Of a stretch of 64,000 nt of DNA, positions 30,934 to 61,644 are shown piece by piece; the first letter of the stretch is position 1; each line of letters starts with the position of its first letter. This stretch comes from Haliclona indistincta (lineage: Eukaryota > Porifera > Demospongiae > Haplosclerida > Chalinidae). The notes beneath the pieces were generated by a model. It was not told where the DNA came from and ran no database searches. It was given only the letters and a program-made list of their open reading frames with translations. The stretch covers positions 4,918,458-4,982,457 of the forward strand of contig OZ024790.1 in assembly GCA_964017065.1 (NCBI GenBank). Direction: 5' to 3'. A program made the translations under genes and the position numbers.

Positions 30934-31153
30934 CTATCGTGATCGAAAATAATTCAACAGCCAAAATAGTATTACTGCTGCTATAGGTATAGCTGCCTTA
31001 ACAAGCAAGTTGCTACTGGCGCCATCATTGCCACCACCAGTCTTTTTAGATTTACCACCAGTGTCTTCATTAGTACTACCACCATCACCTTTGTCCTATA
31101 ATATACAACCAGTGTTGAACATTAATTTGCTAGCTATAGTATAGGCTTACCAT
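30934..31153 (-). CDS. Small tail-anchored peptide TA1 (54 aa)
   Basis: Exon 1 contributes only the start codon (31151-31153), directly followed by the donor GTAAG. Exon 2 is 31095-30934. The peptide begins M-DKGDGGSTNEDTGG, is Gly/Ser/Asp-rich, and ends in a hydrophobic span (LLVKAAIPIAAVILFWLL) followed by NYFRSR. That is the layout of a C-terminal membrane anchor with a basic end. The start, intron position and N-terminal composition match TA2 at 33982-34184. Function is unknown. Homology with the CaaX peptides is suggested by the shared GDGG(S/N)T start and the array context. Confidence 0.65.
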
Positions 31154-31760
31154 TCTTTTCTATAGCGGAATAGCTGTACAAGAGCTGTCTAACTTTTCAC
31201 CCACAAATAGTGTCGTATTTTCCGCCCATCGGTTGATGATTGTGATACGATGGACATCACGTCATTGTACAGTGTAAAAATGTGTTTCTGCAGGAGGAGG
31301 AGCTTACCAGTAGTATTGACAAGCTTGAGTTGATGCATGTCATTTATTTCCCACAGCATGCTATCATGGATTGTACATACTTTCCCCATTGTTAATCATG
31401 GATGCTGCAGTATTCTGTACATTGTTGGTAAATACTGCTTGCAAATCTAAGTCATTCTATCTCTATTATAAATTTGCAAGTTAGCCCTATTAATATTGCA
31501 GTATACAGCCTAGCTACCACCAACTTTATCATTGCAGCAGTAGTACTTACTTTTCTCTGTTCTCATGCACTTTTACAACACTCATTATGTTCTAGCTTTA
31601 GCTTACAGTAAATTTAAGTTTGCAAACACCTTATGTGATTTTTTAATTATTAAAAGCTGTTTGTGCAGGTGGTGGAGCTACTGTTATTTACAGACTTCAG
31701 TTGGTGTATTTGTTAGACATGTTTCAGGAGTCATAACACCAGCAACACTCCACCACCATC

Positions 31761-31868
31761 TCAACCACCACCGTCACCTTCACCCTGTGATACAGCAGAT
31801 GATTCAGTTTACGGAATGGACCTGGTTGCTCTAGTATAGTGCCTTACTTCTTCTGCTATTCTTTTCAT
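31761..31868 (-). pseudogene. Decayed MKRTAE-type peptide gene
   Basis: Exon 1 (31868-31848) reads MKRIAEE and is followed by GTAAG. Exon 2 starts at 31784 with GEGDGGG and then meets TGA at 31763-31761, where the intact paralogues continue to a CTIL end. The CaaX box is lost. It is a dead or drastically shortened copy of the genes at 36964 and 38644. Confidence 0.6.
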
Positions 31869-32375
31869 TATTTTTCTCTCCAATAACTAAGAAGGGCTTT
31901 ACAATAGAGCTACCCTTAGAGATCGCAAGACCCTTAGAGATCACAAGACACTTAGAGATCACAAGACGGTAAACTACCTTATCTCTCGTGATCCTCTCGT
32001 GTACAAAGTGCTGTTTGTGCAGAAGGTGGGGCTACCGAGTAGTATTGATAAGATGCGGTTCATATCTTAATAATAATTTGTTTCTATACTTCAACAAGCA
32101 AATTACTTACCTTTTGACACTGATAATTTCTTCATGTTGTACTCATGTGCAAAAAGTACGGGTATAGCTATCAAGCTGTCGATTAAAACCATGATAAGAT
32201 GATAATTATTTGTTGCTATCTTCACCTTGCTCTGATTAGCTTTACATTTGTTTACTAGTTCAATTTGCTAACCGTTTTGGATTATGGAACTTGGTGAAAT
32301 ATTGACATGTTTGTTGATTTTGTATACAGTAGGTAGAGCACTACTGTTGGATTATCTGTTTCCACAGATTTGTTA

Positions 32376-32694
32376 CAGGGTTTTGCAGGTCACTTGTCGC
32401 AGAGAAAATGACAAATCAACGAGACCACGCCCACTTATCCAGCACCGTACCACAGAAAGTTGGTGAAAAGAAACGCTTGTAGTACCGTGTAAGGTATAGC
32501 GCCTTGCCGTTATTTTTCTCAAATCACCAAGTATAGTCTGTGCTCTGACTGCAACGGTCAAAGTTCACCCAGCAAAAGCAGCGTACACGATACTACAAGC
32601 ATTTCTTTTCGCCAACTTTCTGTGGTGCTGGATAAGTGGGCGTGGCCCCATCGATTTGTCATTTTCACTGCGACAAGTGACCTGCAAAACCCTG
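32376..32694. mobile_element. TA-inserted MITE with empty site in the window
   Basis: Arms begin CAGGGTTTTGCAGGTCACTT and end with its reverse complement, and they extend inward about 100 bp. TA flanks both ends (32374-32375 and 32695-32696). The sister repeats at about 35809 and 39513 read TTTGTTACATTCAACG without the insert, which defines the element and its TA duplication exactly. It is Tc1/mariner-like and non-coding. Open frames at 32284-32561 overlapping it are not genes. Confidence 0.93.
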
Positions 32695-33059
32695 TACATT
32701 CAACGATCACTGCAATTCACCAATCAACATAATCCGTCTCTTCCTCCTGCCTTCTCTCTGACCTAGTGGAGCTTACCAACACATTGAGTGTGTGATATAC
32801 CGTTAACATGATGTGTTTGAGGTATACACATCATAGCTAGCTAGCAATAATAACTTCATGTTCCTGGAAAACTGCTTCGTAGTATTTTTCACTCTTGTGG
32901 TTGTGATATGTGATATATATACCTTACAGGTAAACCTTATATCATGCAGTGTTAAACACATTCTCCCTATCTGTGTCTTAACATACGTGTACAATCAGCA
33001 TTGTTTTAAAACAGTACAATCACTGGTGTCACTATCACGCACGGTATTAAGGTACACTG

Positions 33060-33237
33060 TTACATTATGGTGCAGCGCTTCCACCATGGTTTTTTAGTAG
33101 TGCCACCAGTGCCAGGAGTATGACCACCGTCACCATAGCTTTGTGGTATCACATATGGAAACCCGTCATTGCTCTGAGTCTGTGATACACACAATGACAG
33201 ATATTGTTAGCTAGTAATAACTCACTTGACCATCCAT
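33060..33237 (-). CDS. MDGQ peptide gene 1 (43 aa, CaaX CTIM)
   Basis: Exon 1 (33237-33226) encodes MDGQ. The intron is only 46 bp (donor GTGAG, acceptor CACAG). Exon 2 (33179-33060) opens with TQSNDGFPYVIPQSYGDGG and closes with KRCTIM and a stop. The C-terminal CTIM fits a CaaX prenylation signal, with Met at the last position favouring farnesylation in known systems. This is the most divergent MDGQ copy (PYVI instead of VFVK). Gly/Thr-rich middle, no signal peptide. Function unknown. Confidence 0.65.
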
Positions 33238-33350
33238 TATTTAGCAGAAGTGTTTTACGACAAAGGATTCCAACTTTGCTTCACAAAAGAGCTTTGTAAT
33301 ATTTTTTACGCCCCTTTGTTTGTGAGACGAGAGAGCACTTTAAATATTCT

Positions 33351-33380
33351 CACATGATCCTCGCGTGACCTCACGTGTGT
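33351..33380 (-). promoter_or_regulatory. Conserved upstream box of MDGQ gene 1
   Basis: About 115 bp upstream of the start codon the minus strand carries CACGTGAGGTCACGCGAG, containing the E-box core CACGTG. The same box stands at matching distance before gene 2 (36496-36525) and gene 3 (38172-38202), with diverged forms before genes 5 and 6 (41228-41255, 42263-42300). Confidence 0.45.
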
Positions 33381-33981
33381 TTGTGCGGTAGGCTGGGCTA
33401 ATGAGTGGTATGAATGATGGATTCATTACACCTGCCACTCACCACATAGTGACACTTAGTTCTACTAACTTTGGTTGCTAAGTGCATCGATCATTAAGTG
33501 GTTTTATTACTAATAATAGGCTTTTGGAGCAGATTCTGCATAGCAAATAGTTGACAAGATAGAACGCTTGATCCTAGTAGTGATCAATTATTATGGTATT
33601 GAAGGACCATGTGTCTAAAGCGTTTAGGATTTTTTATCAATTCAACCTCATAGAACTTGTCTCAGACGCCTCTTCTAAGTACGCAATGAACCACCTTTTC
33701 AAGTTTAATTAAATATAATTTATTTGAGCTTAAAATACAGTCTACAGAAGTGTGCACTAAATACTACAATAAGTCAGCGTTATTCAGTGAGCAGCATCAC
33801 AATGTGATTCATGTCTTTTACTGTTCCCTTATTTTTTTGATCTTGCGGAAATGCAAATGCGAGTAAAAATCTCATTATAGCATTAAAATTTTAATAGAGT
33901 TAGCACAATTATTATTTATTATTATTATGTAGGTTTGCTGCTTTAAAGTTCTGTAGTAACAGACTAGTGTCACTAACACAC

Positions 33982-34184
33982 TTAGTTCTTGTGAAACAAA
34001 TAATGCCACAGCTTTATTCCTACTCCTACAACTATAGCTGTAGCTACTGTTCCTATAACAAGCAGCCAGTTACTATGGTCACCATCATTGCCACCACCAG
34101 TCCTTTTAGTTACACCACCAGTGCCTTCAGTATTACCACCATCACCATTGCCCTAATTTGCTAGCTATAGTATAGGCTTACCAT
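33982..34184 (-). CDS. Small tail-anchored peptide TA2 (57 aa)
   Basis: The start codon is the last coding triplet of exon 1 (34184-34182). Exon 2 is 34152-33982. It begins M-GNGDGGNTEGTGG and ends with a hydrophobic span (WLLVIGTVATAIVVGVGI) followed by KLWHYLFHKN. This is a paralogue of TA1: the same exon layout, flanking sequence and Gly-rich head, while the membrane span has diverged in sequence but kept its hydrophobicity. That pattern argues the protein is real. Function unknown. Confidence 0.65.
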
Positions 34185-35019
34185 TCTTTTCTATAGCGGA
34201 ATAGCTGTACAAGAGCTGTCTAACTTTTCGCCCACAAAATAGTTTTGTATTTTCCGCCCATCGGTTGATGATTGTGATACAATGGACATCACGTCATTTT
34301 ACAGTGTGAAAATGTGTTTCTGCAGGAGGAGGAGCTTACCAGTAGTATTGACAAGCTTGAGTTGATGCATGTCATTTATTTCCCACTGCAGATTCGCTAG
34401 TAAAATAAACTGCTTTCCTACCTATTGGGAGCATGCTATCACAGTTTGTGCTTACTTTCATTGTTAATCATGCATGCTGTGAATTTGCAGTACTCTGGTA
34501 AAATTGGTTGCAAATCTAAGTCATTCTATCTTTGCAAGTTAGCCCTAGTAATATTGCAGTATGCAGCCTAGCTATCACCAACTTCACCATTACAACAAAT
34601 AGTACTTACTTTTCTCTTTCTCATGTACTTTACAACATCCATTGTGTTTTTAGCTTACAGTAAATTTGAGTTTGCAAACACCTTATGTGATTTTCTAATT
34701 ACCAAAAGCTGTTTGTGCAGGTGGTGGGGCTAATAGTGACTGTTATTTACAGGCTTCAGTTGGTGTGTTTATTGTACATGTTTCAGGAGACGTAACGCCA
34801 GCAACTTACCACACACTGACACTTTGTTATACTAACTTCATGGAACTTGCCAGCTATTTACTGTAGATGCAGTTATCATAACAAATCAATGAAGTAATCT
34901 GTCTTTTTGTGTAGGGACTCTTGGCACTGGATTCTGGTAATTGTTGTTCTATCAGATGAGATGTAAGTAGCACGTCAATTATGCATAATCGGATAGTTAA
35001 TATTTCTGCGGTTCATATC

Positions 35020-35505
35020 ATAACTCTTTAATCCCTATTGTCGCCATTTGGCGACATGCATACTTCAGACACCATAACTTTATCAAAAGTGTTAAAATAT
35101 CCCAAAATTAAGCTAAATCGAAGAATACAAATAACCGTAAAAATCCAGTGGTTTTCGGTGCGCGCCCTCCGCTAAATGTTATGGCACCAGCATTTCTATG
35201 GCTTCAGTGCAAATTCTGCACTCACCAAAACCACTGCTATTTGTATGTACTTTTCAGTAGCCAGCCCCAAAGTACTGACTTTGAGCAAAATTTGACGAGG
35301 TCATTGCACTTTATTGGCTTCACTTTCGAAGTGGGTGGGGCTTATCGACCGACTTGAGTGTGGGCAATTGCGGCTACTCACTGGCGTAAAAGGACGCAAA
35401 TTTGAGACCATTAGCACAAAAGACACACGAGATATTCACGAGAGAAGTGGTCAGCATTTACGAGGTTAAAATTTTAGCAAGATAATTTAGTAGTTAAAGG
35501 GTTAA
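35020..35505. mobile_element. TTAA MITE copy 1 (piggyBac-like)
   Basis: This is inserted in the peptide array. It starts with a mutated TTAA followed by CTCTTTA and ends TAAAGGG-TTAA. The sister repeat at 39206 shows the uninterrupted site (GGTTCATATCTTAATAATG). The interior shares CTCACCAAAACCACTGC and a GACGAGGTC motif with the copies at 50337 and 51595. Non-coding. Confidence 0.8.
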
Positions 35506-36209
35506 TAACGATTTGTTTCTATAATTCAACAAAGACTACAAATGACTTAACTTTTGACATTAATAGTTTCTTCATGTTGTACTCATGTGCAAAATGTAAG
35601 GATATAGCTCTCAATTTGTCAATTTAGATTGATAATTATTTGTTGCTATCTTCACCTTGCTCTGATTAGCTTTACATTTGTTTACTAGTTTATTTTGGCA
35701 GCCGTTGTGGATTATGGAACTTGGTGAAATAAATGACATGTATGTTGATTTTGTATACTGTAGGTAGAGCACTACTGTTGGATTGTCTGTTTCCACAGAT
35801 TTGTTACATTCAACGATCACTGCAATTCATCGATCAACATAATCTGTCTCTTCCTCCTGCCTTCTCTCTGACCTAGTGGAGCTTGCCGACACAGTGAGTG
35901 TGTGATATACTGTTGACATGCAATATCAGTGTTTCGCATACTAAGATCATGTTTGAGGTATTCACATCATAGCTAACAATAATAACTTCATGTTCCTGGA
36001 AAGCTGCTTCGTAGTATTTTCACTCTTGTGGTTGTGATATGTGATATATACCTTACAGATAAACCTTATATCATGCAGCGTTAGACATGTTCTCGCTATC
36101 TGTGTCTTAACATACGTGTACAATCAGCATTGTGTTAAATCAGCATTGTGTTGTGTACAATCAGTACAATCACTGGTGTCACTATCACGCACGGTACTAA
36201 GGTACACTG

Positions 36210-36384
36210 TTACAATATGGTGCAGCTCTTCCACCATGGTTTAGAAGTGCCACCAGTGCCAGGAGTAGGACCACCATCACCATAGCTTTGTGGTTTCACG
36301 AACACAAACCCGTCATTGCTCTGAGACTGTGATACACACAATAACAGATATTGTTAGCTAGTAATAACTCACTTGACCGTCCAT
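36210..36384 (-). CDS. MDGQ peptide gene 2 (42 aa, CaaX CTIL)
   Basis: Exon 1 (36384-36373) encodes MDGQ. Exon 2 (36326-36210) starts SQSNDGFVFVKPQSYGDGG, continues through PTPGTGG and ends PWWKSCTIL. The 46 bp intron keeps donor and acceptor. Final Leu in the CaaX box favours geranylgeranylation in known enzymes. It is closest to gene 1 in its C-terminal half (the PTPGTGG and PWWK elements). Cytosolic and membrane-tethered by inference. Confidence 0.7.
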
Positions 36385-36963
36385 AGTTTAGCAAGAGTGT
36401 TTTATGACAAAAGATTCCAACTTTGCTTCGCAAAAGAGCTTTGTAATATTTTTACGCCCCTTTGTTTGTGAGACGAGGGCACACTTTAAATATTCTCACA
36501 TGATTCTCGCGTGACCTCACGTGTGAGGTAGGTTGGGCTAATGAGTGGTATGAATGTTAGATTCATTACGCCTGCCACTCACCACATAGTGACACTTAGT
36601 TCTACTAACTTTGGTTGCTAAGTGCATCGATCATTAAGTGGTTTTATTACTAATAATAGGTTTTTAGAACAGATTTTGCATAGGAAATAGTTGATAAGAT
36701 AGAACGCTTGTTCCTAGTAGTGATCAATTATTATGGTGATTCCTCTTAAGTTTACTACTGAAGAAGGACCATGTGTCTAAAGCGTTTAGGATTTCTTATC
36801 AATTCAACCTCATAGAACTTGTCTCAGACTCCTACGTTAAGTACGCAATGAACCACCTTTTCAAGTTTAATGTTTGAGCTTAAAATACAGTCTACAGAAG
36901 TGTGCACTAAATGCTACAACACGTCAGCGTTATCCAGTGAGCAGCAGCACACTGGTACTCTCT

Positions 36964-37103
36964 CTACAGTATGGTACACCAACCACCAGAGTCACCCCCA
37001 GTGCTTGTGGTACTACCACCATCATCATCATCACCCTGTGACATGACCAGGAACTCATTATAGTAATAAATAAGATCTGACTTACTTCGGCTGTTCTGTT
37101 CAT
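36964..37103 (-). CDS. MNRTAE peptide gene (29 aa, CaaX CTIL)
   Basis: Exon 1 (37103-37086) encodes MNRTAE, donor GTAAG. Exon 2 (37035-36964) has an acidic start GDDDDGG, then STTSTGG, and ends GGWCTIL. It is one of the smallest spliced coding genes in the window. It is nearly identical in design to the gene at 38644, with changes in the acidic run (DDDD versus DDD) and D/S swaps. Both end in the same prenylation box as the MDGQ peptides, despite different first exons. Confidence 0.65.
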
Positions 37104-37218
37104 TGTGTGAGTGCCTTACAGTAGAGCTTAGTAGAGTAGCAATGTTACGCCTTTACAATAGAGCTTAGTAGAGTAGCTATGTTACGCCTTTAGGGATCGC
37201 AAAGTGAGTAAACAACCT

Positions 37219-37226
37219 TACGTCAT
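37219..37226 (-). promoter_or_regulatory. TGACGTAA (CRE/ATF-like) box
   Basis: TGACGTAA on the minus strand lies about 115 bp upstream of the MNRTAE start, inside a conserved stretch GATCACGAGAG-ATGACGTAAGG. The same octamer occurs at 39123-39130, 40399-40406 and 43807-43814 (upstream of the MAVK gene). Resemblance to bZIP sites is established knowledge; use here is inferred. Confidence 0.4.
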
Positions 37227-37897
37227 CTCTCGTGATCCTCTCGTATGCAAAGTGCTGTTTGAGCAGAATACTCTCTTACCGAGTAGTATTCATAAGGTGC
37301 GTATCTTAATGACTATAATTCAAATTAGTTAACTTTTGACACTGATAATTTCTTCATGTTGTACTCAATATGTGCAAAAAGTACGAGTATAGAATTTAGA
37401 CGATGATGATTATTTGTTGCTATCTTCACCTTTGCTCTGATTAGCTTTACATTTGTTTACTAGTTCAATTTGCCACCCCTTGTGGATTATGGAATAAATG
37501 ACATGTATATTGATTTTGTATGCATTAGGTAATGCACTGCAATTCACTGATCAATATAACCCGTCTCTTACCCTTGCCTTCTCTCTGACCTACCAACACA
37601 GTGAGTGTGTGATATACTGTTGACATGATGTATTGCAATATCAGTGTTTCGCATACTAAGATCATGTTTGAGGTATACACATCATAGCTAGCAATAATAA
37701 CTTTATGTTCCTGGAAAACTGCTTCGTATTATTTTTCACTCTTGTGGTTGTGATATGTGATATATACCTTACAACACCTTATATCATGCAGCATTAAACA
37801 CGTTCTCCCTATCTGTGTCTTAACATACGTGTACAATCAGCATTGTGTTAAAACAGTATAATCACTTGTGTCACTATCACGGTACTAAAGTACACTG

Positions 37898-38069
37898 TTA
37901 CAATATGGTGCAGCTCCATCCTTTAGATTCGCCACCAGAGCCATTAGAAGAACCACCGTCGCCATTATAGCTATGTGGTTTCACGAACACAAACCCGTCA
38001 TTGCTCTGATTCTGTGATACACACAATAACGGATATCATTAGCTAGTAATAACTCACTTGACCATCCAT
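37898..38069 (-). CDS. MDGQ peptide gene 3 (41 aa, CaaX CTIL)
   Basis: Exon 1 (38069-38058) encodes MDGQ and exon 2 (38011-37898) NQSNDGFVFVKPHSY, then NGDGGSSNGSGG and ESKGWSCTIL. The intron is 46 bp. It carries the full upstream box at 38172-38202. It differs from gene 4 by only two residues (N/G and E/K), so the pair is a recent duplication. Confidence 0.7.
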
Positions 38070-38643
38070 TGTTTAGCAGAAGTGTTTTATGACAAAGGAT
38101 TCCAACTTTGCTTCACAAAAAAGCTTTTTTACGCTCCTTTGTTTGTGAGACGAGTAAGCACTATACGTATTCTCACATGATCCTCGCGTGACCTCACGTG
38201 TGAGGTAGGTTGGGCTAATGAGTGGTATGAGTGATGGATTCATTACGCCTGCCACTCACCACATAGTGACACTTAGTTCTACTAACTTTGGTTGCTAAGT
38301 GCATCGATCATTAAGTGGGTTTTTAAAAACTAATACTAGGCTTTTGGAGCAGATTCTGCGTAGCAAATAGTTGACAAGATAGAACACTTGATCCTAATTA
38401 TTATGGTGATTCCTCTTAAGTTTACTATTGAAGAAGGACCATGTGTCAAAAGCGTTTAGGATTTCTTATCAATTCAACCTCATAGAACTTGTCTCAGACG
38501 CCTATTGTAAGTACGCAATGAACCACCTTTTCAAGTTTAATCAAAATAATTATGTTTGAGCTTAAAATACAGTCTACAGAAGTGTGCACTAAATACTACT
38601 ACAAGTCAGCGTTATCCAGTGAGCAGTATCACATTGGTACTCT

Positions 38644-38784
38644 CTACAGTATGGTACACCAACCACCAGAGCTGCCTCCAGTGCTTGTGGTGCTACCACC
38701 ACCATCATCATCACCCTGTGACACAAGCAGGGAACTCATTATGGTAATAAATAAGACCTGACTTACTTCTGCTGTTCTTTTCAT
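38644..38784 (-). CDS. MKRTAE peptide gene (29 aa, CaaX CTIL)
   Basis: Exon 1 (38784-38767) encodes MKRTAE. Exon 2 (38715-38644) has GDDDGGG, STTSTGG and a C-terminal GGWCTIL. Splice sites GTAAG and CACAG are intact. It is the sister of the gene at 36964 and of the dead copy at 31761. Longer open frames crossing this locus on the plus strand are shadows. Confidence 0.65.
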   Translation of the reverse strand: MKRTAEVSQVLFITIMSSLLVSQGDDDGGGSTTSTGGSSGGWCTIL

Positions 38785-39853
38785 TGTTTGTACTTTACAA
38801 TAGAGCTTAGTAGAGTAGCAATGTTACGCCTTTACAATAGAGCTTAGTAGAGTCAGAATTCAAGAACTGTCTTATTGGCAAACACACGCATTTAAATAGA
38901 ACTAGGCTAACAATGAACTATAAGTGGAGACACTATGATTACAACCCTAGACACATAAGTCCGTGCAGGACACAGCGATAAACAGCAATGTACAAATAAA
39001 TGTTCAATCACGAACAGCTCAGATTGTTAAACACAATAAGTAGTAATGTTACGCCTTTACAATAGAGCTTAGTAGAGTAGCTATGTTACGCCTTTAGGGA
39101 TCACAAGAGTGAGTAAACAACCTTACGTCATAGCTCTTGTGATCGTCTCGTATGGAAAGTGCTGTTTGAGCAGAAGGTGGGGCTACCGAGTAGTATTGAC
39201 AAGGTTCATATCTTAATAATGATTTGTTTCTATAATTCAACAAACACTACAAATTAGTTAACTTTTGACACTAATAGTTTCTTCATGTTGTACTCATGTG
39301 CAGAATGTAAGGGTACGGCTCTCAATTTTGACCATGATAAGAAGATTGTTGCTATCTTCACCTTTGCTCTGATTAGCTTTACATTTGTGTACTAGTTCAT
39401 TTTGGCAGCCGTTGTGGATTATGGAACTTGGTGAAATAAATGACATGTATGTTGATTTTGTATGCAGTAGGTAGAGCACTACTGTTGGATTATCTGTTTC
39501 CACAGATTTGTTACATTCAACGATCACTGCAATTCACCCATCAACATAATCCGTCTCTTCCTCCTGCCTTCTCTCTGGCCTAGTGGAGCTTACCAACACA
39601 GTGAGTGTGTGATATACCGTTAACATGATGTGTTTGAGGTATACACATCATAGCTAGCAATAATAACTGTATGTTCCTGTTAAACTGCTTTTCACTCTTG
39701 TGGTTGTGATATGTGATATATACCTTGCAACACCTTATATCATGCAGCATTAAACACGTTCTCGCTATCTGTGTCTTAACATACGTGTACAATCAGCATT
39801 GCTTTAAAACAGTACAATCACTGGTGTCACTATCACGGTACTAAGGTACACTG

Positions 39854-40025
39854 TTACAATATGGTACAGCTCCATCCTTTAGATTTGCCACCAGAGCCAC
39901 CAGAAGAACCACCGTCGCCATTATAGCTATGTGGTTTCACGAACACAAACCCGTCATTGCTCTGATTCTGTGATACACACAATAACGGATATCATTAGCT
40001 AGTAATAACTCACTTGACCATCCAT
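39854..40025 (-). CDS. MDGQ peptide gene 4 (41 aa, CaaX CTIL), promoter lost
   Basis: Exon 1 (40025-40014) encodes MDGQ and exon 2 (39967-39854) has NQSNDGFVFVKPHSY, a Gly/Ser middle and KSKGWSCTIL. Coding sequence and splice sites are intact. However, homology to the upstream region of genes 1-3 stops at about 40070, where a duplicated GAGCTTAGTAGAGT segment begins, so the conserved CACGTG box is absent. It may be silent or driven by another element. Confidence 0.65.
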
Positions 40026-40074
40026 TGTTTAGCAGAAGTGTTTTACGACAAAGGATTCCAACTTTGCTACTCTA

Positions 40075-40435
40075 ATAGAGCTTAGTAGAGTAGCAATGTT
40101 ACGCCTTTACAGTAGAGCTTAGTAGAGTCAGAATTCAAGAACTGTCTTATTGGCAAACACACGCATTTAAATAGAACTAGGCTAACAATGAACTACAAGT
40201 GGAGACACTATGATTACAACCCTAGACACATAAGGCCGTGCAGGACACAGCGACAAACAACAATGTTCAAATCAATGTACAATCACGAACAGCTCAGATT
40301 GTTAAACACAATAAGTAGTAATGTTACGCCTTTACAATAGAGCTTAGTAGAGTAGCTATGTTACGCCTTTAGGGATCACAAGAGTGAGTAAACAACCTTA
40401 CGTCATCTCTCGTGATCCTCTCGTATGCAAAGTGC
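40075..40435. repeat. Segmental duplication within the array
   Basis: The block with CAGAATTCAAGAACTG... and TGACGTAA on the minus strand is almost the same as 38808-39170, including a 190 bp insert missing from the equivalent place near 37140. It records a tandem duplication of about 1.27 kb whose junction lies at about 40070. Confidence 0.75.
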
Positions 40436-40960
40436 TGTCTGTGCAAAAGGTGAGGCTACCGATTTTTTTTTCTTACACTGAGCAGTACAATGAGGTAATC
40501 AGTTGTATTGACAAGCTTCAAATCATGATTGTTTACTGTAATTCAAATTTTGACTCTGAAGGTACTTACACGCAATCCAGCATACTTCTCAAATTTTTGT
40601 CCCAGAAACTATTTTTATCATTATTTTTTCTGTCACACGTTGCATATCCACATCCTTCCTGCATTCAAGGAATTATTTGTGCAGTAGGTGGAGCCAATCT
40701 TGTGGTTATCATAAACTAAAGCCGCCATGATGCGTATTGGTCACAGAGTTGATACGATATGCACCCATCAGTGCAAAAATGATGTCTTCTCGCTCTTGTG
40801 TGAAAGTCGATTTACGCCAAATCTACATGTTTGTTAAAATCGTAGCTGTGTCTCTTGTCATGTGAAATCAGTCAAGTCTTAAACAGTAAAACAACTAAGT
40901 CAGTATGATCAGTATATTGCTGGTGTCACCATAATAATCTGTATGGAGCTAGCTACAGTG

Positions 40961-41134
40961 TTATAATATGGTGCAGCTACATTTTCCAGAAGAGCCCCCG
41001 CAGCCAACAGTACAGCCACCATCACCATAGCTTTGTGGTTTTACGAACACAAACCCATCGTTGCTCTGAGTCTGTAATACACACAACTTAATGTGAATTA
41101 TTGCTAGCTAGTAATGACTCACTTGACCGTCCAT
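40961..41134 (-). CDS. MDGQ peptide gene 5 (40 aa, Cys-rich, CaaX CTIL)
   Basis: Exon 1 (41134-41123) encodes MDGQ. Exon 2 (41071-40961) has TQSNDGFVFVKPQSYGDGG, then CTVGCGG and GKCSCTIL. Compared with genes 1-4, two cysteines appear in the Gly-rich middle and one just before the CaaX box. The extra cysteines could be palmitoylated or bind metal. The upstream box is diverged (41228-41255). Confidence 0.68.
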
Positions 41135-41982
41135 TGTTTAATAGATGCTTTACGATAAAAAGATGTTCCCACAAACGCTTTGTGATAAGTTATTTGCGCC
41201 CCTTGGTTTGTGAGTGGGTAACTACTTTACGTAATCTCACACGTGACCTCAAATGGGACTAGGTAGGGCTAGTAAGTAGCGTGTATATGATTATTGTTGT
41301 GTACAATTTCTAATTGTTTCCATGGAATTCACCGGTGATGTTTGTGTCCTGTGACTCACTAATAGTAACCTGTTTCTCACCAAACCCTTCTTCTACCTTG
41401 TGAAGCTTGTCAAGCACGGCAAGACTTTGTACAGTGTATAGCACAATTGTCGTCCTTAGCTTCACTAAAGTTGCTTAATATCACTACATGCACTGTTACC
41501 ATTGTTCTGTGAGAAATATCACAGGTTCTGTGAAGCACACAAAACAATGACCAGCTTTGCTGCTAGGAAGACTCATCATTGATACCAATACAGTTTTTGC
41601 TCTGTGATGATTGCTAAAGCACCTCATGTGAATAATACATTGTTGCTGTAGTAGTGAATTCCTTTTGGGAGTTGGGATTATCAGACAGTGAACACCTCAT
41701 GCCTCCTTATGCATGATTTTCTCACACGAAGTGTTGTTTATTTAGAGGGAGGGGCTAACCAGTGGCTACTGTATTGGATTGTTTATGCATAGTTAGTACA
41801 CTAACTCATCAATCATTGACTGACTAACTCACCAATCAGCACGTTTGTCTCTTTTATATGTCTTACTCAATGTGCATGCATGTGCATATGATATTCAATT
41901 ACAACAGTACATGTATAGCAGCAGTCCTACTGTATGCTATTGTCACTATCACAGCACAGGTAGTCTTATTAAAGCTACGTTG

Positions 41983-42160
41983 TTACAGTATGGTGCATTT
42001 GTCGCAGTTGCAGCTTCCAGATGATCCGCCAGAGCCAACAGTCCCTCCACCGTCACCATAGCTGTGTGGTTTCACGAACACAAACCCGTCATTGCTCTGA
42101 GACTGTGATACACACAATGACGAATATTGTTAGCTAGTAATAACTCACTTGACCGTCCAT
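41983..42160 (-). CDS. MDGQ peptide gene 6 (43 aa, Cys-rich, CaaX CTIL)
   Basis: Exon 1 (42160-42149) encodes MDGQ. Exon 2 (42102-41983) has SQSNDGFVFVKPHSYGDGG, a GTVGSGG middle and the end SCNCDKCTIL. Upstream cysteines next to a CaaX box are typical of dual lipidation in Ras and Rho proteins. A plus-strand 67-codon frame at 41858-42061 overlaps it and is rejected. Confidence 0.68.
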
Positions 42161-42639
42161 AGTTTAGAAGTAGCCCAAAAATTCTGCTAGACAAAGATGA
42201 CCTTGTGGTTCACAAAAAGCTTAAGTTGTTTGGTTACGCTGTGAGTCGGGGGGGAACTACTTTACGTAATGTCACATGATTCTTGCGTGACTTCAAATGG
42301 GTGTAGGTTGGGCTAATGAGTGGTACGTATTCATGAGTTGGTTGTCGTGTATTATGTTTTCACAGATTCACTGATGATGGTTAGAGAGCACCATCGCAAC
42401 TCAACTATCAACACTTTCACTGACCCCTCCTTCTGATAGCATGAAACTAGCCGGTATACTTACAGGCAAGTTCTAAGAGTGTAAAATGTTGGTAAAAATA
42501 TTGTATTCTGCAGTTGTTGTAAAAATGTTTTTTTTTGCAGTACACAACATTTCTTAAAGGCTAATAGTTCGAAGATGGCAGGGCTCTGTACTGTGCTACA
42601 TTATAGCACAAGGGTTGTTGTCTCGCCACCTGTATTTCA

Positions 42640-42915
42640 CCATCACCATAGCTCTATTAGGGAAGTCAGACATTATTTGTTGATCAGTATTGGCTTACAT
42701 TGCGACTAGTTATTGGTGTTATCAGTCTGTAATATAAATCAATGACAGTGATAAATTTCTATAGCAATGACCCACATTGCTACTGGTGCTTGCCCTAGAC
42801 TCATCACTGGTGCGAATACAGTGGTTACCATCGCTCTGTGATGATTGCTAAAAGCATGCTCAAGTAAGTAAGAATTTTGTTGCTATCCTAGTGACTCACT
42901 TAGTTGCCCATTCTT
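42640..42915 (-). pseudogene. Decayed peptide-gene remnants
   Basis: Minus-strand scraps include SYGDGE near 42640. A CACAG acceptor is followed by SDGNHCIRTSDES near 42835, and an upstream ATGGGCAAC has a broken donor near 42910. A similar acceptor with SKNCIGINDESS lies near 41590. They look like old, eroded members of the MDGQ family. Confidence 0.35.
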
Positions 42916-43467
42916 CTCTAAGTGCTTACAATTAGACCTCTCAAAATTTTTCCCTCTGTTGTTGCAGCAGATTCCGCCCTCACAGATTGTCAGACGATAG
43001 CTGTACTATGTCACCTTGCATGTTTTATTCACATATAAAGTGTTGTTTGTGCAGGAGGTGGAGCTAGTAAGTGGCGTTCACTAGCATCGCTATCTAACTG
43101 TTTCTACATATTCGTATTGGTGCACAACTTACCGATCAATATGCCTCTCACTGACCTCTCTCTCTCTCTAATATTGTCGTGCTAAGGTATGTACATTTAT
43201 TATTCATAACATTTGTTAATGACGCACGTTTAGTTGAAAAATTATGAATACTGTGTTTCCAAATATTTGCAACCTCATTTTATACACAGTCAGCAGTTAG
43301 AATATAAACTAGCGCAACCTCACATTATACATAGTCAGCAGTTAGGATATAAACTAGCACTATCTAGCACATTTGTGTGACCTGCACACACACAAAGCAA
43401 GACAACTATCAAATATTCACATAATTATGCATGTAATACATGCTGCAGCGAAGTACAAGTATAGCTT

Positions 43468-43669
43468 TCATTTTGAGGTACCACCATTGGTAGTAGTGTT
43501 GCCACCGTTACCAGTGGAATTACCGGTCCCATGCTAAAAGGACAATGATTATTATAACAGTTTCTTATTTGCCGTTATACTTACGTGATCAGTGCCCTGT
43601 TATACAAGCAGACGAGCAAGTAACTATAAGATACGCCTATATCCAATAATGACTTACCTTAACAGCCAT
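43468..43669 (-). CDS. MAVK peptide gene (29 aa, no CaaX)
   Basis: There are three exons: 43669-43658 (MAVK), 43596-43585 (GTDH) and 43533-43468. The last is Gly/Asn/Thr-rich and ends GGTSK. Donors GTAAG and acceptors AACAG and TTTAG are good. Composition and layout resemble the array peptides, but translation stops before any cysteine. TGACGTAA lies about 140 bp upstream (43807-43814). It could be a diverged member or a copy truncated by a frameshift. Confidence 0.45.
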
Positions 43670-45392
43670 TTTGATAGAAACCAAAAAGTGCTCTTACAGA
43701 GTAAGAAGGTTAGAACAGGCAACAATTCTCTAGTTCTCAGCCTCGAAAAACAGCTTTTTAGTAGTACGGCCCTCGGTGTTCAGAGGACCACAACAGGGTA
43801 AACACCTTACGTCATCATTTCACGTGCAAGCCGGCCAAAATGATATTCAACTTATTCACAATGCTACGTAGCCTTTCTTTAAAATATTGTTTAGATAGAT
43901 TACTGTTGATCATGTTTAGCGCAACAGACCAATCAATATACCCTCCTCAAACCCTCCTCCTTCTGCAGAACTTGTCAGCTCTCAGGGATGGAGAGAATGA
44001 TAACACTTGTAATGGACTGTGATGAATAACTACTTCAAGTCCCACCCTCTTGAGTCTGCCGGCAGACATCTAATCCTCATTTCAGCATTCCAGGATAATC
44101 ACAACCACAAGGGAAACCGTAGAGAGCTCTCCCAAACTGACATATATTGTCATGTAAATTTCTAATTTAGTACATGTACAACAAAGATTACTGTGAGAAA
44201 CATAAATCTTTGTTAGAAATAAGCAGGCAATGCTTAAATCTATATAGTTTCTGTTATAAAGGTGTAATATAAACTTCCAAAAACTTTTTCTAAAGTTGCT
44301 GAATTGTTATAACTAGTGCATGTTTATGGTCTTTAATGAGATGTAGAGTATGCATTTGTCTGACGTAGTATGTGAGACCACGTGAGCTTGGAATACTGAG
44401 GTCCAGTCTTGCAATGCATTTGCTTACAGACTGACTTGTTTGAAGCCCTCTGTGACGTTTACATACAGTGGAGCTCATGACTTTGTACTGGACAGGTTTC
44501 TGCGATTATAACTTCTACTCCTGTCAACAGGACACTGAAAAATATGTGCTTGTTAGTCATCATCTAATGCACTTCAAGATCATAAGGTCAAGATAAAGTG
44601 CTTGACAGTGTTTTCTCATCCTTGTATTCTAGCACACATCTTGAATGTGCTAACCATGCACTGCATGCTGTATTGAGTAATTATTGTTAGCAACACAACA
44701 AAATTCTATAGTATATTAGCAATGGATGCATGCAGTGTAAGTAAACTAAACTAATCGGAGACATACCTACAACTTTATAATCTGTGAAAACTGATTATTA
44801 AGTGCTTGTTCTAGTATTAATTTGCTATGCATTTGTGAGCGCTGTATAAATTATAATAACACTGTACATAGCTATCAAGTCTACTTTTATGTGTTCCAAC
44901 AATTGCAAGGTTTTAACTTTTCACAGATTTATTCTCTGCATGCATGAAGTCTCTCATAATAGGAGTTAAAACTGAAGTGAGACAGAGCTATAATAAAAAT
45001 TATTAGAAACCTGATTGTGGTAAAAGAAAGTGATCAAGGAAGAGTGATTTAGTGCTCAATCGTTACCTCTATATATTATAGTTCACATTAATTTGTAAAT
45101 ATCGATATTGCTTTGATCTAGCTACCCTGTTTTGATGACTAGGCATGGTCTTTCTACTACAGTATATCTTATCAAAATTCTGTTACAGTATACACAATAT
45201 ATTATGTGCATTTTGCAGCCAGCCCTTGAATTGCTGGGCTGGTGATCTTGGGCTGCAGTTATAACACATGCTACCTTGGCCTCAATTAATATGATTTTTA
45301 TTTTAAATTAAAAACTGGAGAGATTTCATGTGATAGAAAAGGTACAAATAATAAGAATAACAATGTTGATACTAAGAAAAAAATGGGCAAGA
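43670..45392. other. Spacer between peptide array and TRAF-like gene A
   Basis: No supported gene. AT-rich sequence with short unsupported frames. A minus-strand AATAAA (TTTATT at 45297-45302), about 90 bp beyond the gene A stop, is a reasonable poly(A) signal. Confidence 0.5.
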
Positions 45393-47489
45393 TTAGTTGA
45401 CTGTGACTTGCACTCTTACACAAATACAGTCCTGGTAAAGGTATTGTGTATTTCTGGATGAGTTGAGCGATAAAGAGGAGTGGGCGATGAATTTGTATAA
45501 GCCATAGTCAGCTCCATACTCTCCTTCAGAAACTCTATCAATGTTACTGTTTCTATAAATCGATAGTGCGTGCTTGCAGTGTTCTTTGTCTTCTAACCAG
45601 TTTAGCACCTCAGTAATGATAGTACCAGTAAAAGGCCACTTGAGGTCGTCATCATTTGGACCTTTCATGATCACAGCTGTGATTGTTAGGTGAATGCCTG
45701 TACTACTACCATAACCATTGGCATACATTTTGAGGCAAAAATTATAACCACGTGGACCGGTAGTGAAAGGTGGAGTGAAGTAGATATTGTCAAATTTCTT
45801 CCGTTTGGAGTATTCTGATATCGTGAACTGACTGACCACTGACTCGGAAGAGACAAGAAGAGACCCAGCTTGCCATGCTGGGGTTAGGGGGAGAGGAGGT
45901 GTAGAGTAGACTGCCACACTAACTCTTAGTTTGAAGTAGTCATTCAGCAAGTAATCCGTGTCGGGAGTTGGTTTAAGGTCGTGGTATGGTAAATATTTGG
46001 GATGGCCAAGGCTAGTAGCAGTTTCCTGATTTTTGACACGATAAGAATTGAAGCAGCTATTAGTATGGTTGTATCTGTTGTAGCAGATTGTATCGGAATA
46101 GTGGTTCTTGTCTTCTTTCCAATTTAGTAATTCTATTCGGATGTCTCCCTCAAATGGCCATACTAAGTCATCATCATACTCTCCCCTCATCAGTTGAGCA
46201 AATACTGAAAGATGAGATCCTTCACCAGCACCATAACCATTGGGGTGCACATTGAGACGAAACTTGTAACCTTTGTTGTGTGTATAAAATGACGGACTAA
46301 TCCACTCATAATCAACTCGTTTCTTCTCACTGAAGTCATCAATAGTGAACACTATTGGTACTTGGTTATACAGGTATTCTGGCGACGAAGTGATTTCTGT
46401 TGAAGATCTAGATGGCGGACATATTGAGTAGTGTTTCTCTGTGACTATAGTGTACGTGTTGTAATAACCACATTTCTCACATGAGATCATTCGTTTGGAG
46501 CATTGACGCCGTGTGTGTTCTCTCATATCACATAAACGAATATTTTTATCACAGCCAAATGGACAAGCAATGCCACACTTCCCTTTACTAGGATCAAGGT
46601 GGTCATGAAGATCTCTTAGTTCACCGACCCATTCACATCCTTCCTTATAATCTGAGCAACGTACTTCGAGATTTTTGACTTTTCTTTGGTGATTTCTGTC
46701 GAGTACAGCACTCGTAAGTGCGTCTTGCTCACTACATGAAGGGCACTCTGATTTACCGATACTGATAAGGCCGTCACGACATTGCCGGCAAAGATGGTGT
46801 CCACATTTGATGAATAGATACGGCTCTGTAAGAGGCTCAGTGCAAACAGGACATTGGTAGTCAATATCTGTTTCTTTTGCTAAGCAAACAACTGGTTTCT
46901 GAGGAGCTGTGAAAAGGTAGTAATAAGGAATGAAAAAGGAATGTTGTGTTGAAAAATAACATTCATGCAACTGAACTAGCTATAGTTGTTATACAATTAA
47001 GAAGCTCAAATTGCTTCACCAAAGCACACAACTTCCTATACCATATGTACAGAATTTGACTATTAGTGACGTAGAGACTGCTATGATCTATGGTAAACAA
47101 TAAAACTAAAATTGCTTCTGGCTATGGGCAGGGCTTGTGAGAAAAACAGCAGTACATTTGCAACCGAGTAGTACAACAACATGTAAAAGCTAACCACGAA
47201 GACGAGACGCGATGTGTGTTTGACCAGTTTCTTCAAGAATCCGTATGAAAATTTGGAAGTTGTCAGAGTTACCGTTCACTGCTTGCTCGATGTAACGAAC
47301 AAACGTCTCCGCCTTCTTTTTCGGGTCGATCTCACTATCGCATTCAGCTCTCTGTCGGCTCGTTATGAGTTTTTGGTCCAGAGCAGCTGGGAGGAGAGCA
47401 GTAGTGTCGATACTGTTAACCAAGTAACTGAACGAGCGTTTTAGAGCCTCGCCGGGGTCTGACTGCAACTCTGCACCAGTAGTGGCCAT
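45393..47489 (-). CDS. CARD-RING-TRAF zinc finger-2xMATH protein (gene A)
   Basis: This two-exon gene encodes 602 residues: 47489-47195 and 46906-45393, joined in phase 1. Exon 1 is a CARD-like death fold (about residues 10-97; LITSRQRAECDSE, FQIFIRILEETGQTHIASRL). Exon 2 holds a C3HC4 RING (CPVC ... CGHHLCRQC ... CPSC, residues 117-160) and TRAF-type zinc fingers (CSDYKEGCEW ... CPFGC ... CEKCGYY). Two MATH domains follow, each with a WPF(E/T)G element and an LLNWKEDK or LNWLEDK motif. It lacks an obvious coiled coil. A role as a ubiquitin-ligase adaptor linking CARD partners to downstream signalling is inferred. Two MATH domains in one TRAF-like protein is unusual. Confidence 0.88.
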
Positions 47490-48510
47490 TGACTGGGGCG
47501 TATCATAAAAAAACAGTACTAATAATAATTTTAAAAGATAAATTTTTAAAAGCCATAATTTTTTTAAAGGTAGTTACATTTTTTGATAATACCAACACAG
47601 AAATTTTGATAATACCAACACAGAAATTGCAGTAGTTACGTAATATATAAACCATGGCTTGGAGGTGTGTATGCCGAATATACCACCCGAGGTCGAGGTC
47701 AGAGGAAGTTTGCAGCCGAGATAAACCCCGAGCGAAGCGAGGGGTTTATCGAGGCTGCAAACTTCCGATGACCGAGACCGAGGGTGGTATATTCGGCATA
47801 CACACCGACAAGCCATGGTTCATATGTTATATACCTTAGTGTGTGGGCGTCGCTTCTTGCTCGCGTTCGCGTGGATCTCGATTTAGCGGTGAGTCACGGG
47901 CCGAGAGGAGGCCCCAAGTGTGTACGCGTACCTGAGTAGAGTGTGTAGCAAAGACTTGGACAGCTTTGTGCTTCTAGAGCGAAAGAGCGATCGCCAAGTT
48001 TTGTTGTATTCATTGCAATATTCAACATGACTTGGGCGGGGTTTACCACTTGCTTGCCAATTTAATACCCACTAGTGTCAGGATGATTGTACACTATAAA
48101 TCTCAGCCACTTCTGTGCATCTTTGCCCTGCAACTGGGTGCTGCTAGTTGCAAGGTGAACAACTGTCCGAGGATGCCCTCGCGCAACCTCAACCTGGTCA
48201 CGTGACCAGGGCACACCTCTTGGTTAACCCCTTGAGGAGTGTATTTCTCATATACCACCATGGTGGTATATATCGCATAATCTCCATGGTGGATTATGCG
48301 ATATATACCACCATGGTGGAATATGAGAAATATACCACCTGTGCCTTGTATGGGGACGCCCACACACTATGGTATATAGTTGTATTATGTATCCAATGAG
48401 AAATAACTAAGTAAAATAACTATCACAACAACTAAGACGTGTTATAGAAAGTGAGTTAGCATTACAGTGTCAGTGTCTATAAGGTAATACATTAACCACT
48501 GACAGTATAA
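47490..48510. other. Intergenic spacer filled with foldback elements
   Basis: Between the two TRAF-like genes lies a palindrome at 47650-47820 (arms sharing GTGTATGCCGAATATACCAC) and a TIR element at 47828-48378. Open frames here on both strands mirror each other because of the palindrome and are not genes. Confidence 0.75.
47828..48378. mobile_element. MITE with inverted ends and internal palindrome
   Basis: The left end TATATACCTTAGTGTGTGGG is matched in reverse by CCCACACACTATGGTATATA on the right. Inside, 48242-48332 is an almost perfect palindrome built of CCACCATGGTGG and TATATCGCATAATC. Non-coding. Confidence 0.75.
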
Positions 48511-61120: not shown

Positions 61121-61274
61121 CTGCATGTAAGAACAATTGATCAATTACCAAAAAAAGATAAAAACCGTTATTAATTTTACACGTAGTTAATATACAATAT
61201 TACAGCAGTAAAGAGAATTCTATGGTATTTAAAAGGAACAAGCAACATTGAACAAGCAACTTTGGACAACAACT

Positions 61275-61644
61275 GTGGCATTATCGATGGCATGCAGAGG
61301 CAGAATACATTGCTTTGTCAGCTGCTAGTCAAGAAGCAGTGTGGCTCCAGCAACTCTTCAGTGATTTGTTGAATGAAAAAGTCCAAGAAACAGTCATATT
61401 TGAAGACAACCAGTCGGTGATAATATGTCTGGCAAAGAATCAACAAGTTCATGGACGGTCCAAACATACCGACATCAAATATCAAATATATATTCGTGAA
61501 CTGGTAGAAGCTGGAAAATTGAAGTTATTGTACTGTGCCTCAGAGGATATGACAGCTGATATCATGACAAAGCCGTTACGTACAGCTACATTTGAGAAAC
61601 TGAGAAACTTAGCAGGATTTGTCGAATTTGCTCCCAAAGAGTGA
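61275..61644 (+). pseudogene. Ty1/copia RNase H fragment
   Basis: The frame reads HAEAEYIALSAASQEAVWL, then FEDNQSVIICLAKN, KHTDIKYQ and MTADIMTKPL, ending at TGA 61642-61644. These are the conserved C-terminal RNase H blocks of copia-type Pol. Reverse transcriptase, integrase, gag and LTRs were not found nearby, so this is a truncated remnant, in reverse orientation to ROCO-B. Confidence 0.85.

Follow-up and report, generated by a model that had tools for sequence, protein, structure and literature searches.

Heterotrimeric G-protein gamma subunits are short proteins tethered by a CaaX box at the cytosolic face of the membrane, and conotoxins form tandem peptide families with a conserved front and a variable back. 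A third comparison is offered by the CaaX pheromone precursors of fungi, four of which, 57–61 amino acids (aa) long, are encoded at one locus in Pleurotus eryngii (PMC4136793). Here, we describe an array of tiny spliced candidate genes from the sponge Haliclona indistincta that invites comparison with all three. The array lies in a 64,000-nucleotide (nt) stretch of contig C8 (C8:4918458-4982457, the window) of an assembly of 144 Mb in 46 contigs, and appears to be a genuine, undescribed family of minute protein-coding genes, seen in one genome.

Eleven tiny spliced open reading frames (ORFs), all on the minus strand, were found within positions 30,934–43,669 of the window, and their exon coordinates and translations were rechecked. 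Six begin with MDGQ, two with M(K/N)RTAE and one with MAVK, and two encode a hydrophobic C-terminal stretch. A sequence-only reading had reported eleven intact candidates on one strand within 13 kb; location, strand and type counts stand, but one of the tail-anchored copies (ta2) is doubtful. Since the intron of ta2 is 29 nt, against 55 nt in its counterpart ta1, our count of well-formed genes is ten. The size range of 29–57 aa was unchanged on recheck of the translations, and the first exons are indeed unlike between types. CTIL ends seven of the eleven peptides and CTIM one, giving a CaaX box in eight, namely all six MDGQ and both M(K/N)RTAE peptides, in agreement with the claim that most copies share a prenylation box. 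Trp is present in the tails of six of these eight. GDGG, said to be common to the acidic or Gly/Ser-rich bodies, is missing from the MAVK peptide. No signal-peptide-like start was apparent in any array peptide, as judged by eye and with no predictor run.

The MDGQ genes are u1 (33060–33237; exon 1 33226–33237, intron 33180–33225, exon 2 33060–33179; 43 aa, ending CTIM), u2 (36210–36384; exon 1 36373–36384, intron 36327–36372, exon 2 36210–36326; 42 aa), u3 (37898–38069; intron 38012–38057; 41 aa), u4 (39854–40025; intron 39968–40013; 41 aa), u5 (40961–41134; intron 41072–41122; 40 aa) and u6 (41983–42160; intron 42103–42148; 43 aa). All but u1 end in CTIL, and u5 and u6 carry a Cys in the tail. 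Their introns begin with GTGAGT and finish with ACAG, and all have a length of 46 nt except that of u5, at 51 nt; an alternative acceptor 6 nt downstream is also possible. The two M(K/N)RTAE genes, k1 (MNRTAE; 36964–37103; exon 1 37086–37103, exon 2 36964–37035) and k2 (MKRTAE; 38644–38784; exon 1 38767–38784, exon 2 38644–38715), each encode 29 aa ending in CTIL, and their introns, of 50 and 51 nt, differ by 1 nt. The MAVK gene (43468–43669) has three exons (43658–43669, 43585–43596 and 43468–43533; 12, 12 and 66 nt) separated by introns of 61 and 51 nt, and encodes 29 aa without a CaaX box; two 45-bp direct repeats (43269–43358) lie immediately 3' of it. In ta1 (30934–31153; 54 aa) the first exon is the ATG alone and exon 2 spans 30934–31095, while ta2 (33982–34184) has an open exon 2 at 33982–34152. 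The best 19-residue hydropathy windows of ta1 and ta2 average 2.16 and 2.26, both from residue 31, where the two sequences differ. All twelve introns have GT...AG borders, so that the canonical sites and the several 46-bp introns of the earlier reading are borne out. Read without splicing, k2 is open in frame, k1 is frame-shifted, and each of the remaining nine meets a stop within ten codons. From these features, we infer that the array genes are transcribed and spliced.

As a check on the coding reading, dN/dS (omega) between the six MDGQ copies was estimated with a codon model using a parameter grid, one fixed tree, equal codon frequencies, and 24 (core) and 16 (tail) codon columns. The core, MDGQ-x-QSNDGFVFVKP-x-SYGDGG, is constrained, since its omega is ~0.2 (twice the log-likelihood difference, 2dlnL, 11.36; p = 0.0008 versus 1), and the tail changes fast, the stretch before the CaaX box having an omega of ~1.5. 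The earlier description of the family as diversifying thus fits the fast linker, but a rate above neutral is unsupported, as ~1.5 is indistinguishable from 1 (p = 0.22). Omega for the whole gene is 0.5 (p = 0.052), and separate core and tail values beat a shared one by a 2dlnL of ~11.6 in the same likelihood profiles. The corresponding ratio of proportions (pN/pS), summed over 15 pairs that are not independent, is 0.17 in the core up to GDGG and 1.64 before the CaaX box. Alignment gaps in exon 2 of the six copies are multiples of three, and the intron gap in u5 is 5 nt. Between u5/u6 and u1–u4, identity in aligned columns is 38–61% in the flanks, which contain many gaps, 69–82% in exon 2 and 76–96% in the introns. 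On account of the constrained core and the exon gaps in threes, ORFs of a simple repeat or mobile element were rejected as the principal explanation. Tandem Repeats Finder reported six short arrays within 30.9–43.7 kb, one of them (34087–34141) in the Gly-rich exon of ta2 and none over the MDGQ or M(K/N)RTAE genes.

The array also holds more such genes than chance would give. One set of splice rules, requiring a canonical donor after a short first exon, an intron of no more than ~120 nt and a product of 24–75 aa, was applied unchanged to the array, to the remainder of the window and to 18 further loci, the controls amounting to 165,143 bases on both strands; the Gly-rich threshold (≥20% Gly) was set after the genes had been seen. 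On the minus strand of the array 26 starts were obtained, ten of them Gly-rich, ten with a CaaX end and nine with both, while the plus strand gave 14 starts, none of which had either property. The controls yielded six Gly-rich starts (two each in loci L051, L052 and L037, the last of which contains the C5 relative described below), four CaaX starts and none with both. Of the nine doubly positive starts, seven are genes and two are alternative starts; u1, at 19% Gly, falls short despite its CaaX box, and u2 passes through its alternative acceptor only.

To find relatives, the assembly was searched with patterns drawn from the array. MDGQ followed by a donor site has eight matches: the six array genes, one simple repeat on C7 and a gene at C5:180683. 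The C5 gene has three exons, encoding MDGQ, DTKQ and a 35-residue Gly-rich stretch with a Cys cluster that ends in STKK; exons 1 and 2 both measure 12 nt, like those of the MAVK gene. The pattern of a 12-nt second exon with its splice sites has four matches, of which two are the MAVK and C5 genes and two lack a similar gene (reversed control, 2). Searched by exon, MDGQ exon 2 has six genome matches, exon 2 of the M(K/N)RTAE genes two, exon 2 of the tail-anchored genes two and C5 exon 3 one, namely itself. The plain MDGQ-start pattern has 160 matches (94 forward, 66 reverse; control, 93). Ten regions around some of the first 100 of these listed were taken, four of them being the C5 neighbourhood, and no similar gene beyond C5 was seen in the nine regions read (C1, C3, C4 and C5). 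A decayed relative that combines the family upstream block with a Gly-rich body (NGNGSKSGGNDAGK) and a tail containing Cys lies at about C5:181.8–182.6 kb (L038, C5:181001–191000). Codon constraint, in-frame exon gaps, common upstream DNA and the C5 gene as a relative on another contig together support the claim of a locally duplicated family.

Both the MAVK gene and the C5 gene end before any anchor. Past its TGA, the MAVK frame continues for 16 codons (43468–43470 on to 43417) before closing with the CaaX box CIIM; the chance of such an end is ~0.2% per gene, or 0.1% with a stricter motif. The C5 frame continues as RLSLYRQYCTV, without a CaaX box, and the decayed C5 relative has TGG at the position of the C5 gene's stop. 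Similarity of the post-stop tails gave uncorrected P values of 0.44 (MAVK and C5 gene), 0.16 (MAVK and C5 relic) and 0.01 (C5 gene and C5 relic), and homology of the MAVK and C5 3' ends to the CaaX coding ends gave P values from 0.0015 to 0.68 over 12 pairs. These data give a hint of stop-codon readthrough in the two genes, with weak support from relatives.

Upstream DNA is shared among several members. An element, TGACGTAAGGT(N1-2)TTTAC, precedes k1 (37208–37225), k2 (39113–39130), MAVK (43798–43814) and the C5 gene, and lies ~360 nt upstream of u4 (40388–40405), the window copies all being on the minus strand; it has five matches in 144 Mb, all five upstream of members, and the reversed pattern has one. 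We presume that it resembles a cAMP-response element (CRE)/bZIP site. At about −100 to −112, u5 and u6 carry TTACGTAA, and ta1 and ta2 carry TGACGTGA. No site of the TGACGTAAGGT, TTACGTAA or TGACGTGA type was matched within 350 nt of u1–u4 or of two broken copies. These two, the least number of broken copies in the array, are on the minus strand near 31868 (an MKRIAEE copy at 31720–31868 with an in-frame stop within the body) and near 42911 (a copy at 42596–42911 that starts MGN-stop and has a separate open frame ending in CAIM). Another element, TTTGTGCAGNNGGTGGRGCYA, has five genome matches, all in the array (control, 0), and both it and TGACGTAAGGT(N1-2)TTTAC remain family-specific. At the TTTGTGCAGNNGGTGGRGCYA copies at 31660, 34712 and 40676 (plus-strand coordinates), no intact gene was noticed at the usual distance; these are probably relics of lost members.

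The best local match between the MAVK and C5 upstream regions is an identical 30-nt block ~300 nt before each ATG (score 60; maximum of 200 shuffles, 32). A short way upstream in C5 the block is present twice more, and a decayed Gly-rich body comes after one of these copies. With up to three mismatches, the block TTCTGCAGAAGGAGGAGGGTTTGAGG has eight matches, one at MAVK, three in C5 (the C5 gene and two others) and four on C6 (C6:1762317 onward, L075/L076; 1772152; 1779851; 1838824). At the one C6 place that was read, longer upstream DNA is held in common with MAVK and u6, and the block is followed by a 49-codon Cys/His-rich ORF (MTKCEKKGGCC...) unrelated to the family, which is possibly another tiny gene type. 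The idea that one shared promoter proves the family is weakened by these C6 copies. Upstream likeness links the types in chains: not every pair exceeds the background maximum of 33 (ta1/u3 scores 19), and u5 and u6 exceed it only with other MDGQ genes. The flank upstream of u4 matches the k2 flank (local score 650), so that u4 looks chimeric.

The claim that no such family had been described is also supported, within the searches made. Against Pfam-A (hmmscan, E ≤ 1), 11 of 12 peptides (the eight CaaX members, ta1, MAVK and C5) had no match, and ta2 had one far sub-cut-off match, to NADH_dh_m_C1 (E = 0.13), over its hydrophobic tail. A PDB search with u2 returned two insignificant matches only (E = 1.2 and 1.5), u2 had no homologue among 5.8 billion proteins, and a 12-row family alignment yielded 1180 candidates in the protein search, none at E ≤ 10. 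Among the literature matches listed, a scope that leaves most subscription literature outside, no animal family was found in which tandem genes for CaaX peptides of ~40 residues have tail-anchored sisters.

We propose that most members produce a short, probably disordered, Gly-rich peptide on the cytosolic face of a membrane, anchored either by a prenyl group at CTIL or CTIM or by a C-terminal transmembrane helix. The specificity of CaaX enzymes predicts geranylgeranyl for CTIL and farnesyl for CTIM. Bodies of a similar Gly-rich kind are followed by a CaaX box, by a hydrophobic tail or by no anchor, and we prefer a tethering role because two unlike anchors are found on one kind of body; as both anchors leave the N terminus in the cytosol, tethering is the simplest role they would have in common. 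A mechanism at the level of membrane tethering is likely on the available sequences, and to the fuller statement, that these are short Gly-rich cytosolic peptides tethered to membranes via prenylation or a C-terminal helix, we give even weight for and against. The conserved MDGQ core may be a functional face presented to a partner, and the variable Gly/Ser/Trp/Cys stretch may serve as linker and membrane-contact zone. Prenylation, cytosolic topology and the existence of a binding partner are, like transcription and splicing, what we infer.

Several observations weigh against this reading. Tethering is not universal, since no anchor is reached before the stop in the MAVK gene or the C5 relative. 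The 51-nt intron of k2 is open and in frame, so k2 is also readable without splicing, and ta2 is probably unspliced. The tail before the CaaX box evolves at a rate compatible with neutrality. In 14 of the 15 MDGQ pairs the introns are less diverged than the synonymous sites of the core, and in the fifteenth neither shows any change; this may reflect gene conversion or short-intron constraint, and it complicates the rate comparison. The longer upstream block also occurs at C6 places without a recognised member, and the absence of any protein relative fits an orphan family and also non-genes, which would be missing from databases.

Alternatively, the array might be non-functional, a young repeat whose ORFs have been kept by descent and are mostly decaying. 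The broken copies, the doubtful intron of ta2, the element copies without an intact gene and the four C6 places would suit such an origin. We nevertheless consider it quite improbable, given the core omega of 0.2, the exon gaps in threes, the exons of u5 and u6 that outlast their flanks, and a C5 relative that keeps the exon layout. By analogy with yeast a-factor and mushroom pheromones, the genes might instead encode lipopeptide signals, that is, prenylated precursors cut N-terminally and exported, with the variable tail beside the Cys as the message. Eight tandem genes for peptides of 29–43 aa with CaaX ends, variable residues beside the Cys and frequent Trp are consistent with this, as is the multi-precursor locus of P. 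eryngii. It is, however, unlikely, given that constraint is strongest in the N-terminal core rather than in the tail, that two members have a hydrophobic tail in place of CaaX, and that no STE3-type or other receptor gene was noticed by eye among window ORFs of ≥110 aa, although no profile search for receptors was run and introns could hide one. A specifically animal form of the idea, in which co-regulated tandem precursors of prenylated signals would bear variable tails denoting individual or cell-type identity, strikes us as rather unlikely.

The two remaining explanations draw on the neighbourhood. The minus strand also carries, upstream of the array (45393–47573), RING-MATH ORFs, including one at 45393–46979, and a CARD-like ORF (47190–47573). 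The order at C5 is identical (CARD-like ORF, RING-MATH ORF, small gene), and at both loci the small genes are 3' of the pair on the same strand, at 1.7 kb in the window and ~3.2 kb in C5. This position is the only lead connecting the family to signalling, self-recognition or defence, as the sequence-only reading had speculated. The peptides might then be membrane-tethered regulators or decoys of these innate signalling genes, and in the sponge Amphimedon, proteins combining Death-like and TRADD-N domains, in some cases together with MATH domains, are described as greatly expanded (PMC8195603). The CARD scores at both loci are under Pfam's curated cut-off, and the adjacency may reflect duplication of one block. 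The RING-MATH query has at least 217 matching stretches in the assembly, chiefly on C6, a large expansion, and in a protein search 324 matches at E ≤ 1e-20, the best having 69% identity among the 120 listed. Small peptide genes were found beside only 2 of the 13 closest stretches, a set that counts the query itself and a copy interrupted by a stop, within the DNA read for each (~4.5 kb downstream for ten; the window and L037/L038 for the rest); a peptide gene beside every RING-MATH gene is thereby ruled out. The Gly-rich models in L051 and L052 are unlike the family. A regulator or decoy role is also unlikely. Gly-rich defence peptides active on microbes would account for the composition, the tandem copies and the immune-type neighbours; this is very improbable, as the peptides have no apparent signal-peptide-like start and their CaaX boxes and tail anchors would place them on the cytosolic side. 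Elsewhere in the window, an ORF at 61252–61644 presumably resembles the RNase H end of a copia-type retrotransposon, with no Pfam match.

Membrane tethering of a constrained core remains our preferred account. If the genes are expressed, they offer compact material on the origin of tiny spliced genes missed by annotation and on the exchange of membrane anchors, and they bear on whether animals use prenylated peptides as signals. Because they adjoin expanded RING-MATH genes, a connection with innate immunity or self-recognition can also be put to the test.

Compared with known systems, the array is like the fungal CaaX pheromone precursors (a-factor and those of mushroom B mating loci) in that the products are short, several variants share a locus and a Cys stands four residues from the stop. 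It differs from them in the constraint on an N-terminal core, in the Leu that ends seven of the eight boxes and in the sisters with a hydrophobic tail. No homology to known pheromone precursors was found with u2, the 12-row alignment or Pfam, a weak negative because such precursors are short and fast-diverging. With G-protein gamma subunits the peptides have in common their shortness and the CaaX motif, a likeness of motif only; the array CaaX members are ~40 aa or less and Gly-rich, and no gamma-subunit domain was matched in Pfam at E ≤ 1 in the CaaX members, ta1, MAVK or the C5 peptide, ta2 matching only the other, sub-cut-off family. As in conotoxins, a conserved first exon, intron and front part are joined to a faster-changing back, but the array peptides have no apparent secretion signal, and their variable back ends in a conserved CaaX box.

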